From IMG/VR virus record IMGVR_UViG_3300020204_002217, positions 1 through 64,000 of that record: DNA of 64,000 nucleotides, one strand, 5' to 3'. Below the pieces are notes generated by a model. It was not told where the DNA came from. It was given only the letters and a program-made list of their open reading frames with translations, and searched no databases. The position numbers and the translations under genes were made by a program. Below, piece after piece: positions 1 to 6,404 of the stretch. Every line of letters begins with the position of its first letter. Within the stretch, counting starts at the first letter, position 1. The stretch is from a virus.

Positions 1-8
1 AAGTGTAT

Positions 9-84
9 TGGTGGAGATGGCGGGATTCGCACCCGCGTCCAAAGCATCGTTCCCCTCACTTCCTACAGTCATATAAACCTCTAC
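9..84 (-). ncRNA. ssrA: tmRNA acceptor piece (3' half) of a probable permuted two-piece tmRNA
   Basis: The minus strand ends in an encoded CCA (9-11) preceded by discriminator A and acceptor strand CATCTCC, then a perfect T arm: GCGGG stem (32-36), TGCGAAT loop, CCCGC stem (20-24). GGAC directly 5' of the T arm is the hallmark GGACGCGGG of tmRNA. U at position 70 of the acceptor strand predicts the G3-U70 pair that alanyl-tRNA synthetase reads, and TGTAGGAA upstream resembles the 3' P2 region of tmRNA. No GGAGATG or GGGGATG lies within tRNA distance upstream, and a protein gene ends at 93, so neither a normal tRNA nor a one-piece tmRNA fits. In permuted tmRNA genes the acceptor piece comes first and the coding piece follows; that would lie left of position 1. 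The 5' end is an estimate from the promoter at 90-97. Confidence 0.68.
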
Positions 85-89
85 AAAAG

Positions 90-97
90 TATTTATT
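90..97 (-). promoter_or_regulatory. Late promoter core, AATAAATA, upstream of the tmRNA piece
   Basis: The minus strand reads AATAAATACTTTTG, one base from the T4 late consensus TATAAATA. The eight-base core differs in one base from the promoter at 358-365, and both are followed by CTTTTG. The core overlaps the stop codon of the upstream gene (93-95). T4 geometry would start the transcript near 84. Confidence 0.55.
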
Positions 98-317
98 CGC
101 TTTGGCTTACAAACTCGTTTAGCTTCTTTGCTTCGGCAATAATATCTTCAGTAGTAGGGCATTTACGCATTGATGGAAATTGGGCGTTAGGATTTACATC
201 CCTGGCAGCGTTCCATTGCATTTCTAGATTTGATCTTTCGTAAAAGTATGGCTCAAAGATACTTTCTTTAGCCAGTCTTAATAGATCCAAACGGATCTCG
301 TATGGTGATTTGCTCAT
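93..317 (-). CDS. Conserved small phage protein of unknown function
   Basis: This gene encodes 74 residues. The sequence is soluble and charged, opening with MSKSPYEIRLDLLRLAKE, a predicted helix of a type I associate with small conserved proteins of T4-like marine phages; I cannot name a function. The start is well supported: AGGAGGTAATT lies directly before the ATG, the strongest ribosome binding site in the window, and an exact late promoter core lies 40 bases further upstream (358-365). No transmembrane segment or known motif is visible. It sits between a 41-residue membrane peptide gene and the tmRNA piece, and its stop codon is inside the next promoter core. Confidence 0.85.
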   Translation of the reverse strand: MSKSPYEIRLDLLRLAKESIFEPYFYERSNLEMQWNAARDVNPNAQFPSMRKCPTTEDIIAEAKKLNEFVSQSE

Positions 318-691: not shown

Positions 692-699
692 TATTTATA
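692..699 (-). promoter_or_regulatory. Late promoter core, exact TATAAATA, in front of the structured RNA
   Basis: The minus strand reads GTATAAATAATCTC. No start codon follows; the downstream 100-170 bases are noncoding and structured, so this promoter appears to drive an RNA. Confidence 0.65.
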
Positions 700-707
700 C
701 TTTTACT

Positions 708-3700
708 CTATTTGTATTTCCTATTGTAATAATCTTTTAGCCAACTCCATTCATAACTTAACTTAAGTTTGTCTATATCACCATAAACTTCATTATAGTA
801 TTCTACAGCATCATTAGCTCCACTTAAACAGTCTTTGGCAAACTTTCCTTTTGCTTTTGTTAACCAAACATTTAATCTTTCTAAAGCTATATCTGTATAG
901 TCGCTCTTTAGTTTTATAACTTCACGGAAAGCTGTACGCCAAGTACTATATGGATCTGTATTAAATGTAGCTACACCTGATAGTACTTCAACCGTTTCAT
1001 GCGGATCGTCAAGTGTAAAGTCTAATCCATCACCAAAATTATTTAATACTAGTTGTTTGTTATACGCAATCATACCTTGATGACCATATTTTAAACCATT
1101 TACAGGATTTTTAGCGTGAAATATATAATGCTTTGGAACCTGTAGTCTGTCTGGTTGCCAACCCCAATCAAATTTTGTGTCTACCTTTAATTTAGCAAAT
1201 ACAGTAAATGCCCATGAAGTTTCACTATTTTTAGCTGAGGCATGATAAGCTTCAACTCTACCGTTTATACCGTCAACACGAACTACTCTGTTTTTAAGCC
1301 CTTTAGTGACAGCAAGCAAGTGTTCATAGTTTTCTTCTGCACACTTTTCACCGTTGCTGAGATATACGATGTCAAGTGGCTTACTAGCTAATAACTTGCT
1401 TGCTGTTTTTATAAAAGGATAATCATATAATTCTTTTTTAATGTAGTCTTTAGCTTCTTTAGGCACTATAATACGTGATGCGCCGGTACTTGTAACTAAT
1501 AATTCCTTTGTATCTGACTGCCACAAATTCATTGGTTCATTATCAATAGTAGAAAAATCTTCTGTAGTATAAATGGCATATGGGAAGTCAAACTCAGTAT
1601 GGATTGATCCTACATGTGTATCTGTATTAACTTTAATTACAGGAGCAGGCAAGCGACTTGTTCTAATTGTGCCGTTATAATTGACTTTATTATATTGCTG
1701 TAAAATATCTAACTCATTAATAATTGATTTAGCATGATTTATATCTATTAAAAATGTATCCCCAAATTTTTGATGATCACTTGGAAAAACATGTAAATTT
1801 TCTTTTGCAAAAGGATCACAAATATATGACAAGTCAAAAGCATTGTAATTACATATACTGCTACATACCCAAACATAGTGTTCTTTTTTTGGCATTATAT
1901 CATTAATAATATTTTTAAGTGTTTGCAAATATGTCTGCTCATACCTTATAACCTTAACCGTTTTGCCACAAGCCATATTAGTAATTACATCTACAACTCT
2001 TTCACATTCTTTGTTACCATGATCTATAATATAAATGTCGTATAAATTATTGGTTGCAAATGCTCTTTTATCTTTAACAAAATTAAGGTTACTTAAATGT
2101 TCTACTACTTTAATATATTTGGTATCCTCACTAAAGGTATCACGATTAACCATAAAAGTAGTTCCCCAATGGCTCCATTGAGTACCAAATATATGCACCA
2201 TCTTCATTTGCCAAGGATCAGGATAATAATTAAAATTAAAGTTACTGTAGTCTAACTCACTATTAAGTATCCAGCAAAGATTTGTAGTAGAACGATTGAT
2301 ACAACGATTAATAGTATCGACCCAACTGTTTAAATATCTTGTTTTTTGAATTTTATTACCGAATTTTTCTTTCAGCTTATTGAACCTGTCATTAGCCTCA
2401 GTATTGCCTTTATCTACAAAAAACATATCTAGCATTATACGCAAGTTGTTTTTAGTTTCTACATAGTTTAATTCTTTATAACCTTGCATAAACATAGTTG
2501 CAGATACAAAATACGTTTGTGTATTAATATTGTCTTTTGTCCCAAAGGCATGAATATATCTTGCCTGTTCAATGTTTGGACGCCAATTAAAATCAAAACT
2601 ACTATAATCAATATCTTTGTTTAATGCCCAAAATATTTCGTCAGGATGTTCATATACTAAGTCTTCTAAAGTAGTGTTTATATAATACTTATTTACCTGC
2701 TGTGTTTCGGACTTAGTCTCTATTCTCATCAAACGTACAATTTCGCCATTATTATTAGATGTGATGTATCTTGGACCGTCTTCATCATTGCTTAAAGTAC
2801 CAAATTGGTATATATATTTAGGACTATCGGGGTCCGGTCTCCAACTAAAATCAAAATTTGATACATCACATCCTTCTGGTATTTGCCAGTTTGTCATGTC
2901 AGGTAATACTTTTGCTTTTATATCAGTAATATATTTTTTATCTGTTGCACCTTCTACATGATATTCTAATGTAGGGTCTTTAACTGCATCATACCATTGA
3001 TTACCAAATACATAAATGTAGGCAGGATCCTTAGGATTAGGTCTCCAACTAAAATCAAAGTCACTTACAGGATATAAAATTTTAAATTTACTCATATCCA
3101 TAGCTACTTTGGCCTTTATATCAACATACTTTATATCTTTAGCATTTTTAACTTTATATTCTAAGGTTGGTTCTATTTCAGCATTGTTCCACTGATTGCC
3201 AAATATGTAAACATAGGGTTCTTCGTCTGGATCTGGTACCCAACTAAAATCGAATCCATCATCTGCAACTTTTATATTTTCTTTAAATCTTTCACGTTGA
3301 GGTTTAAGTATAGCTTTTACATCACTTAAATATTTTCTGACCTTTGCACCTTTTACATGATATTCAACAGTTGGCATTTTAACACCATCGTACCATTGAT
3401 TACCGAACACATAGATATATGGTTCCTCTGTAGCATCAGGATGCCAACTATAATCAAAATATGCAACTTCATTTAACGTTTTCCAATGTTTACCTACAGT
3501 AGGTAAAACTTTTACTTTAATACTGTTAACATATTTCTTTTTAGTTGCATCTTCAACAATATACTGTGGACCACCTGTCTTTTGCCACTGTGTTCCGAAC
3601 TCATAGATATAAGGTGGATCTTTTGGGTTAGGTATCCAGCTAAAATCAAAATCAGTTGTATCAACATTAACTGGTATTTTCCAATTAGTCATGTTAATAT

Positions 3701-6404
3701 CAAGTACTGCCTTAGTATCATTTATATACTTTATTTTAGTTGCGCCCTTTACTATGTATTTTATAGTAGGCATGACTTCTGCTGCATATAATGTATTACC
3801 AAATACATAGATATAAGGTTCTTCTGTATCATCTGGATGCCAACTGTAGTCAAAATCTTTTATTTTTAATCCTTCTACAGTTTGCCATTGGTCAGATTTT
3901 ACCGGCAATCTTTTATAACGTATATCAAGGTACTTTTTTTCACTAGCTCCATCAACAATATATTGAGGTCCGCCAGTCTTTTGCCATTGTGTGCCAAATT
4001 CATAGATATAGGGCGGATCATTAGGATGCGGGACCCAACTAAAATCAAAATTTGTTATATCAATATTCTCTGGTATAATCCAATTTTTAGCATCTGGCAA
4101 TAATTTAGCTTTTATATTATCAATATATTTAAATTCTATACTATTTTTACACTTGTATATTGGACCGCCCCTGTTATTATGGATCGTTGCAAACTCATAA
4201 GTATAAGCAGGTTCTGTACTATCAGGATGCCAACTGTAATCAAACGTGTCATCAATATTATTAGGTATAATCCAATTAGTTTTATCTTGTAATCTTTTTG
4301 CTTTTATAGTTTCGATATACTTAATCTCAGTAGCATATTCGACTACATATTTAGGCCCGTCAGTTTTCTGCCATTGTGTACCGAACTCATAAATGTATGG
4401 TTTTTCAGTATTGTCTGGATGCCAACTAAAGTCAAAACTATCTTTATCAATATTGTCTGGAATCTGCCAGTTATCATAACAACGCAAAGCTAATACTTTT
4501 TGTGTGCTAATATATGTTGTATCTACAGCATCCTTAACTATAAATTTAGGACCACCTGTCTTTTGGTGCTGTGTACCAAATTCATAATTATATGGCGGGT
4601 CTTTAGGATTTGGTACCCAACTATAATCAAAATTATTGTCATCTACATTATTTGGTATTATCCAATGGTCTTTATTTTGATCAAGTATGGCAGTTATACC
4701 TGATATATATTTTACTTGTTTTGCACCCTCTACTTCAAAGCGTATTGTATGCATAATTTCAGCTGGATATTTGTCATTGCCAAATATGTAAATGTATGGC
4801 TGCTCAGTATCATCAGGGTGCCAGCTAAAATCAAAGTCTTTAACTTTAACCCCATCTTCTATAATAAAGTTTTCTCTAACAGGTAAAGTTTTAGATTTTA
4901 AAATTCTTCTATCAATATATTTGATAGGACTCATTTCATCACTACCCGGAGTATGATATCTAGGCCCGCCTGTTTTCTGATGCTGTGTACCGAATTGGTA
5001 TATGTAGGGCCTATCCTCAATAACAGGGTGCCAGCTAAAATCAAAACTATCTTTATCAATATTGTCAGGTATTTCCCAATGTTCCATATTAACTACAGCT
5101 TTAGCAACAGGCTCATCAAGATACTTCTTTTCAACTGCCCCGGGAACAGTATAAATTGGACCGCCAGTTAACGCCCACTGAGTAGGAAAGTAATAAATGT
5201 ACGGTGGATTAGTTCTATCGGGATGCCAACTAAAATCGAAATCTGATAAATCTAAATTACTAGGTAAAGTCCAATTATCTTTTACAGGCAATGCTTTTAC
5301 AGAAAAAGTGCTGACATATTTTACCTCTGTCGCGCCATCTACTACATATCTTGGTCCACCGGTCTTTTGCCATTGAGTACCAAATTCATATATGAACGGA
5401 GGATCTGCCGGACTAGGTTCCCAACTGAAGTCAAATCCTGTGATATCAATATTATCTGGTATAATCCATTTGTCCATGCATGGTTTTCTTATTGCACGAA
5501 CGTCCATATATTTGTATTCAGTCGCTCCTTCAACAACATATTGAATACTTACTTTATCTTCTGGTTTGTTCCATTGATTTCCAAAAGCATAAATGTAGGG
5601 AGGGCTTTTAGGATCAGGTATCCAACTATAATCTAGCAAATAACTATTTTCTAGATGTTCAAATCTGTTAGAATTAGGAGCTAATTTTGCAACTAATTTT
5701 TTATCTATTATGTATTTTTTTTCAGTAGCACCTGGCATACGATATTCAATAGTAGGCATATGCACAGCATCATATTGATTATTGCCGAAAACATAAATTA
5801 ATGCAGGCTCCCTAGGATCTGGTCGCCACGTAAAGTCAAAACTATCCGTTAAAATATTTTCTATTATATTCCATCTATCTTTTTCAGGTGTTACAAATGC
5901 TATTCTATCCATGTATTTTTTCTTAGTCGCACCCGGTACAACATATTCAACAGTAGGTTTGTATAAACCAGAGACCCACTGATTTCCCCAAACATATATG
6001 TAGGGCGGGTCTGTAGGGTCGGGGTACCAACTAAAGTCAAATACTAATTCATTAATGTCGCAATATATTTTCCAGTTATAATTTTTTTCATTTTTTCTTT
6101 TAACTTGATCTACGTCAGTTCTGTAGACTATCAAGTTACTTTCTTTTTTACTACATAACCAAGTACCACTGTCTTTACAGTGTTGGCTAGGCCAAACATT
6201 GTTGTGATTTTCAGCCCATACATCTTCGTCAGGTAAGAAATCAAAATCAAAATCCCATTCAAAGTTTGTGTAATCACAAAATTCGTTTATGATCCAAAAA
6301 TCTTGCGTAGTTGATTGATATCGTGCGTCTGCTAGATTTTTTGCAAAGCGTTCACGTGGATGGACATTTGGCTTTTCGCCATAATAAAAAACATCTCTCA
6401 GCAT
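708..6404 (-). CDS. 1898-residue tandem-repeat protein with glycosyltransferase-like C-terminus
   Basis: A very large protein with about 17 tandem units of roughly 65-70 residues (residues ~120-1220), each built around FDFSWxPDP, then PPYIYxFG, a GTQWQKTGGP or GNQW segment, and a closing GAxxxKYxD. Four more divergent units follow. The last ~260 residues share, in order, the signatures IVYLS, RVDG, NGLKYGHQGM and WRTAFRE with the product of 27226-28179, a protein with a DGDN motif, so the C-terminus is probably derived from a GT-A-like fold. The repeats look like multiplied central pieces of the same domain. No signal peptide or membrane segment is visible. The start is ATG at 6404, nine bases after the carbamoyltransferase stop, without an obvious ribosome binding site. 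It may be a giant surface or scaffold protein, a multivalent glycan-binding protein or a multi-site enzyme; function is unproven. Confidence 0.8.
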   Translation of the reverse strand: MLRDVFYYGEKPNVHPRERFAKNLADARYQSTTQDFWIINEFCDYTNFEWDFDFDFLPDEDVWAENHNNVWPSQHCKDSGTWLCSKKESNLIVYRTDVDQVKRKNEKNYNWKIYCDINELVFDFSWYPDPTDPPYIYVWGNQWVSGLYKPTVEYVVPGATKKKYMDRIAFVTPEKDRWNIIENILTDSFDFTWRPDPREPALIYVFGNNQYDAVHMPTIEYRMPGATEKKYIIDKKLVAKLAPNSNRFEHLENSYLLDYSWIPDPKSPPYIYAFGNQWNKPEDKVSIQYVVEGATEYKYMDVRAIRKPCMDKWIIPDNIDITGFDFSWEPSPADPPFIYEFGTQWQKTGGPRYVVDGATEVKYVSTFSVKALPVKDNWTLPSNLDLSDFDFSWHPDRTNPPYIYYFPTQWALTGGPIYTVPGAVEKKYLDEPVAKAVVNMEHWEIPDNIDKDSFDFSWHPVIEDRPYIYQFGTQHQKTGGPRYHTPGSDEMSPIKYIDRRILKSKTLPVRENFIIEDGVKVKDFDFSWHPDDTEQPYIYIFGNDKYPAEIMHTIRFEVEGAKQVKYISGITAILDQNKDHWIIPNNVDDNNFDYSWVPNPKDPPYNYEFGTQHQKTGGPKFIVKDAVDTTYISTQKVLALRCYDNWQIPDNIDKDSFDFSWHPDNTEKPYIYEFGTQWQKTDGPKYVVEYATEIKYIETIKAKRLQDKTNWIIPNNIDDTFDYSWHPDSTEPAYTYEFATIHNNRGGPIYKCKNSIEFKYIDNIKAKLLPDAKNWIIPENIDITNFDFSWVPHPNDPPYIYEFGTQWQKTGGPQYIVDGASEKKYLDIRYKRLPVKSDQWQTVEGLKIKDFDYSWHPDDTEEPYIYVFGNTLYAAEVMPTIKYIVKGATKIKYINDTKAVLDINMTNWKIPVNVDTTDFDFSWIPNPKDPPYIYEFGTQWQKTGGPQYIVEDATKKKYVNSIKVKVLPTVGKHWKTLNEVAYFDYSWHPDATEEPYIYVFGNQWYDGVKMPTVEYHVKGAKVRKYLSDVKAILKPQRERFKENIKVADDGFDFSWVPDPDEEPYVYIFGNQWNNAEIEPTLEYKVKNAKDIKYVDIKAKVAMDMSKFKILYPVSDFDFSWRPNPKDPAYIYVFGNQWYDAVKDPTLEYHVEGATDKKYITDIKAKVLPDMTNWQIPEGCDVSNFDFSWRPDPDSPKYIYQFGTLSNDEDGPRYITSNNNGEIVRLMRIETKSETQQVNKYYINTTLEDLVYEHPDEIFWALNKDIDYSSFDFNWRPNIEQARYIHAFGTKDNINTQTYFVSATMFMQGYKELNYVETKNNLRIMLDMFFVDKGNTEANDRFNKLKEKFGNKIQKTRYLNSWVDTINRCINRSTTNLCWILNSELDYSNFNFNYYPDPWQMKMVHIFGTQWSHWGTTFMVNRDTFSEDTKYIKVVEHLSNLNFVKDKRAFATNNLYDIYIIDHGNKECERVVDVITNMACGKTVKVIRYEQTYLQTLKNIINDIMPKKEHYVWVCSSICNYNAFDLSYICDPFAKENLHVFPSDHQKFGDTFLIDINHAKSIINELDILQQYNKVNYNGTIRTSRLPAPVIKVNTDTHVGSIHTEFDFPYAIYTTEDFSTIDNEPMNLWQSDTKELLVTSTGASRIIVPKEAKDYIKKELYDYPFIKTASKLLASKPLDIVYLSNGEKCAEENYEHLLAVTKGLKNRVVRVDGINGRVEAYHASAKNSETSWAFTVFAKLKVDTKFDWGWQPDRLQVPKHYIFHAKNPVNGLKYGHQGMIAYNKQLVLNNFGDGLDFTLDDPHETVEVLSGVATFNTDPYSTWRTAFREVIKLKSDYTDIALERLNVWLTKAKGKFAKDCLSGANDAVEYYNEVYGDIDKLKLSYEWSWLKDYYNRKYK
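2760..6045 (-). repeat. Tandem coding repeats, about 17 units of ~200 bp
   Basis: Each unit encodes the FDFSWxPDP / PPYIYxFG block. Two subtypes can be told apart: one continues GTQWQKTGGP, the other GNQWxxxxxxPTxEY. Reading from the N-terminus, three units of the second type come first, three of the first follow, and then the two are mixed. Neighbouring copies differ at the DNA level, so this is not a recent slippage array. Confidence 0.85.

Follow-up and report, generated by a model that had tools for sequence, protein, structure and literature searches.

At the left end of the window (the whole 64,000-nt stretch of DNA analysed here), the minus strand carries a gene for a 74-aa protein, a T4-late-type promoter core, and the 3' acceptor sequence and T arm of a tmRNA. 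T4-like baseplate genes lie in the same window, and a gp6-like protein was 31-33% identical to proteins of jumbo phages including Atu_ph07, 121Q and Erwinia phages. Feature coordinates are collected in Table 1. Loci retrieved in the searches are given as L numbers.

Table 1. Features of the window, with the basis of each assignment.
Feature	Position	Strand	Basis or remark
Acceptor piece of permuted (two-piece) tmRNA	9..70	minus	RF04321 match and 89/89 nt identity to L011/L012/L019/L020
Encoded CCA	11..9	minus	read from sequence
A73	12	minus	read from sequence
Acceptor 3' strand CATCTCC plus A73	12..19	minus	sequence; CATCTCC itself at 19..13
T arm GCGGG-TGCGAAT-CCCGC	36..20	minus	sequence and Rfam alignment
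GGAC	40..37	minus	read from sequence
Open frame, first 24 codons (MTVGSEGNDALDAGANPAISTNTL)	1..72	minus	ATG at 72-70; open to contig end
Shine-Dalgarno-like AGAGGT	77..82	minus	5 nt from GAGG core to ATG at 72-70
T4-late-type promoter core AATAAATA	90..97	minus	TATAAATA with one mismatch; overlaps stop codon of upstream gene
74-aa gene, syntenic marker	93..317	minus	directly upstream of tmRNA
tRNA-like element	520-589	minus	15.9 bits to tRNA model
COG2908 RNA (RF02939)	640-684	minus	70 bits; few bases downstream of perfect T4-late core TATAAATA at 692-699 (minus)
1898-aa protein	708-6404	minus	divergent FDFSWxPDPxxPPYIYxFG repeats
Nol-like carbamoyltransferase, UDP-glucose dehydrogenase, nucleotide-sugar epimerase and several radical-SAM proteins	6414-27232	minus	gene cluster
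6983-aa single ORF	33495-54446	minus	adjoins baseplate genes

The first 70 bases of the window read GACTGTAGGAAGTGAGGGGAACGATGCTTTGGACGCGGGTGCGAATCCCGCCATCTCCACCAATACACTT on the minus strand. The CCA, A73, U70 (position 15) and perfect T arm named in the original prediction were all read directly in this sequence. The T stem was free of mismatches, and the T loop was TGCGAAT, with G at the place of U55. Position 55 of the T loop is usually U or pseudouridine. A cmscan of positions 1-700 aligned 70..1 (minus) to positions 1-71 of the 213 of RF04321 (tmRNA_permuted) at 41.4 bits (E 8e-7), and the model search proposed as a check of the RNA family thus returned permuted tmRNA. Window position 1 is also the first base of the 71,507-bp contig, and the alignment accordingly carried a flag for 3' truncation. 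This loss of two thirds of the model past the contig end is the most likely reason for a score below the gathering score of 47 bits. The contig stops 8 nt past the CCA, so that the window holds the acceptor piece and 8 nt of spacer.

RF00023 was also aligned, over 9-203, but with a poorly paired 5' half, and no tmRNA gene was called by ARAGORN in the window. One-piece 5' sequence is therefore lacking upstream, as predicted; neither a 5' acceptor strand nor a tag frame was supported upstream of the T arm by either method. The coding piece was absent from the rest of the contig in searches with RF01849, RF00023, RF04321 and ARAGORN, and no continuation beyond the contig end was found among the IMG/VR contigs searched. 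Since the coding piece lies outside the contig, the conclusion of a permuted gene rests, for this genome, on homology.

A pattern search with the acceptor sequence returned 12 IMG/VR loci. Eleven of these were permuted tmRNAs by ARAGORN and cmscan, L009 being the sole one-piece tmRNA. RF04321 scores were 126-148 bits in ten of the eleven and 72.9 bits in L013, whose tmRNA is cut off later than that of the window; the same ten matched the betaproteobacterial model RF01850. Complete relatives overall scored 121-148 bits to RF04321, and most matched RF01850 as well. Over positions 97..9, which take in the promoter core and the CCA, all 89 bases were identical to those of L011/L012/L019/L020, which represent two contigs, both with a complete permuted tmRNA and the tag ANDETFALAA. 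The assembly probably broke just past the CCA because of this common stretch.

In all close tmRNA-bearing relatives, a coding piece was present downstream of the CCA. It had been predicted that this piece would begin with GGRGATG and encode a tag ending in Ala-Ala. Both parts held in the relatives, where GGGGATG occurred 76-124 nt past the CCA and the tags (ANDETFALAA, ANDDVYALAA, ANDEVYALAA and similar) end in LAA; the contig studied here ends before either could be read. GGGGATG restores the G3-U70 alanine identity pair with the CATCTCC strand, and would pair in the same way with the U70 of the window. An alphaproteobacterial and a cyanobacterial model had been proposed for the covariance search; the full-length relatives matched RF01850 and not the alpha or cyano models. 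ANDxxxALAA is the standard, host-like tag, and a phage-chosen tag is therefore not indicated. By comparison with these relatives, assignment of the tmRNA gene to the betaproteobacterial type with an ordinary host-like tag is supported. Together, the RF04321 match and the complete genes of near-identical relatives make it very probable that the window carries the front, acceptor-bearing half of a permuted phage tmRNA gene, as first proposed.

The upstream gene ends at position 93, just before the tmRNA, as had been noted. Its 74-aa product had no PHROG or Pfam match. As a query, this protein added 31 loci, and in the best eleven of these (L016-L026, 77-93% identity) a permuted tmRNA lay right behind the 74-aa gene in 11/11, with approximately 100 nt extra between the two in seven. 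L027 and L028 carry close homologues with no tmRNA behind them, so the linkage is not universal.

The predicted late-type promoter of the gene itself was confirmed as a core one base off TATAAATA, the T4 late promoter core, and AATAAATA was unchanged in the nearest relatives. Late-core motifs were not over-represented across the window. At distances of up to 100 nt upstream of the tmRNA GGAC, [AT]ATAAATA was present in 12 of 24 distinct phage tmRNAs versus 2.4% of random positions. The binomial p of 8e-14 is too optimistic because the tmRNA sequences are related; the contrast is still large.

Two other origins of the acceptor sequence were weighed. If the gene lacked a coding piece, the sequence would be a remnant consisting of the acceptor only, or an acceptor RNA of the tag-less kind. 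This would agree with the acceptor piece alone being visible in the window, and tag-less phage tmRNA forms exist: that of mycobacteriophage DS6A, approximately 65 nt, is reported to inhibit endogenous tmRNA (PMC11915505). This reading is very improbable, given that full genes are present in the closest relatives, whose sequence is the same for 89 nt, promoter core included, and that the visible acceptor part is without signs of decay. It is likewise very improbable that the sequence belongs to a one-piece tmRNA as its 3' end, or that integration left it behind as an attachment-site copy of the 3' end of a host ssrA. The ssrA gene is a frequent integration site of phages and islands, and the 12 pattern matches include a one-piece tmRNA (L009). 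Against this, the 5' half is lacking upstream, and the 5' leader and gene order agree with those of permuted genes located inside phage contigs. Tyrosine integrase was not found in seven records (this contig and six related ones, mostly fragments), which makes an attachment-site origin unlikely.

An open frame starts with an ATG at the 5' end of the acceptor piece and runs to the contig end. Eight distinct tmRNAs in this clade have the same frame, from an ATG 32 nt before GGAC, and in them it remains open from the acceptor piece across the intervening segment into the start of the coding piece. The intervening segments were 76, 79, 79, 91, 94, 94, 97 and 124 nt in length, all 1 mod 3. In L044, L057, L072 and phage DLP6, a TGA occurs two further codons past the ATG; members with the open frame have GGA, AGA or CGA at the place where others have TGA. 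The AGAGGT site was kept in L006, L011, L016 and L017, was replaced by AAGGA in L010 and was not evident in L054 and L059. Profile searches revealed the same arrangement in a distant group (L087-L093, L100-L103, L119, L121) with different tmRNAs and tags.

The spacer part of the frame encodes a conserved peptide motif, [FY]Y[TS]xxEWxR...G, present in 14 distinct phage tmRNAs. In the distant group, [FY]Y[TS]xxEWxR in most cases continues with a G-rich stretch, VP/LP and ER; in L013 the start of the motif is kept and the sequence diverges after REW. In this genome, the peptide would sit left of position 1 of the window, where only the start of the frame is visible. The motif was always in the frame open through the acceptor piece, in 14 distinct tmRNAs with nine different spacings and no stops. 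L100-L103, L119 and L121 were added by a search with the spacer peptide as query, in which the frame was not imposed. Variation was greatest at third codon positions, with 17/19 versus 9/38 in the distant set (p = 2.4e-6) and, more weakly, 16/19 versus 17/38 in the clade (p = 0.004). In a set that included two stand-alone copies, pN/pS of the frame was 0.42, compared with 1.23 and 0.81 for the two alternative frames. Within the acceptor and coding pieces, dN/dS of the frame was 0.85 and 2.1, i.e. without protein-type constraint, as expected since the RNA is constrained there. Stand-alone copies of the peptide were found in L105 (106 aa) and L118 (55 aa, after tRNA-Met). In L105 (2738-3315) the start of the copy overlaps the stop codon of an 86-aa gene that by eye resembles a GroES-type (gp31-type) co-chaperonin. 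The spacer peptide had no credible homologue in isolate phages, Pfam or PHROGs.

On these sequence comparisons, the spacer frame is probably translated, and the permuted tmRNA gene of this clade of uncultivated T4-like phages would double as a protein gene. The most economical view is that the peptide may be a small late phage protein, whose gene would be housed in the spacer at no cost to the tmRNA. The frame might instead be untranslated: the spacer could be a piece of a phage gene acquired recently, or a conserved RNA processing element that resembles coding sequence. Hairpins can form in some spacers, an obvious Shine-Dalgarno site is missing in some members with the frame, and the AlphaFold2 model of the stand-alone version was poor (pTM 0.30). 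An untranslated frame is nevertheless rather unlikely in view of the single stop-free frame at all nine spacings, the low pN/pS in that frame, and the recurrence of the peptide both in stand-alone ORFs and in tmRNAs that differ greatly. A hairpin recognized by eye in L002 was also not apparent in L010, in which the peptide is kept nonetheless.

Association of the spacer frame with the unusual T loop TGCGAAT was considered and rejected, as L072 and L094 have the loop without the frame. Other small ORFs, several resembling membrane peptides, were seen inside the intervening segments of L050/L057, L072, L094, L118 and L044 (e.g. MNDEIVKWLFGLGVILLVFAIVLL, MFDEWHWVYLWGILIWINYIFC).

Taking the permuted gene and the translated spacer frame together, the following course is proposed. 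A T4-like, probably jumbo, phage would carry a complete permuted ssrA gene, transcribed from its own late-type promoter into a precursor with the acceptor piece first, the coding piece last and the intervening segment between them. Excision of the intervening segment would fall to tRNA-processing enzymes of the host, and the two pieces would be held together by acceptor-stem pairing of CATCTCC with GGGGATG. The G3-U70 end would be charged by host AlaRS. SmpB was not found in this or seven related records, mostly fragments, and tmRNA function would thus need host SmpB. With it, the tmRNA might rescue stalled ribosomes late in infection and add a tag of the ANDxxxALAA type. As the open frame spans from the ATG to the intervening segment, the unprocessed precursor could double as mRNA for a small late protein, a message that tmRNA processing would destroy. 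For the genome studied here, we infer the coding piece, the processing and the function.

Phage two-piece tmRNAs are already known; in PMC9004378, 53 phage tmRNA structures were flagged as two-piece by ARAGORN. As described there, Melnitz and related marine phages are alike in having a phage-encoded permuted tmRNA in a T4-like myovirus. The Melnitz ssrA differs in being grouped with alphaproteobacterial tmRNAs, whereas the type here is beta, and in having a glutamine riboswitch and, according to its authors, an early promoter where a late promoter is found here; the sections consulted make no mention of a spacer ORF (PMC9004378). The isolate phages DLP6 (L014), XacN1 (L127), Rb1 (L128) and HTVC008M (L130) likewise have permuted tmRNAs by ARAGORN and/or RF04321, but stop codons close the frame through their acceptor piece, and the peptide is missing from their spacers. 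In the record regions examined of DLP6, XacN1 and Rb1 the tmRNA is unannotated, and DLP6 has a hypothetical CDS at the tmRNA edge.

The RF04321 and RF01850 systems share with the present gene the acceptor piece in first place, together with the T arm and CCA; the full order acceptor piece, intervening segment, coding piece, the G3-U70 pair (only U70 is visible in the window) and the ANDxxxALAA tag are shared by its relatives. Unlike those systems, the present gene is phage-borne, has a T4-late-type promoter in front and the T loop TGCGAAT, and is crossed by an open reading frame that uses the intervening segment. Among the tmRNA gene forms described with RF04321 in PMC11915505 are nested genes, namely a homing endonuclease in group I introns and a tRNA-Ala in one intervening sequence. 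There too, the removed part of a tmRNA gene holds another gene; here, in contrast, the gene is permuted and intron-free, and the protein frame extends as well over the mature acceptor piece and into the start of the coding piece. A literature search among open-licence papers found nothing on protein frames in tmRNA spacers. The overlapping protein frame in the relatives is the new part, the phage permuted tmRNA itself being known yet little studied. If the frame is translated, an RNA gene and a protein gene would occupy the same bases with mutually exclusive transcript fates, and the locus would offer a test bed for competition between ribosomes and RNA-processing enzymes over one transcript. 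Spacers of tmRNA genes in compact genomes are worth screening for genes.

A scan of bacterial genomes with the acceptor sequence gave one match, a candidate-phylum MAG with a one-piece tmRNA, and so no host was indicated; a plasmid search gave no match. L009, with the same T-arm and acceptor sequence, is a phage contig with many tRNAs, and its one-piece tmRNA has an unusually long predicted tag. The cluster at 6414-27232 suggests phage glycan synthesis. By eye, the COG2908 RNA is the 5' portion of a more extended phage RNA, with a GTTTGTC/GATAAAC long-range pairing and, downstream, a hairpin in which both strands of the stem differ between phages; RNAalifold recovered the known core only. The tRNA-like element has the acceptor GCTTCGG/CCGAAGC, the T-loop TTCGAAT, mismatched T and anticodon stems, and no CCA. 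In the clade with tmRNAs it is strongly conserved, directly behind the COG2908 RNA, and all contigs having the element (13/13) also carry a permuted tmRNA. At its place, L060/L062 have a canonical-looking tRNA with CCA.
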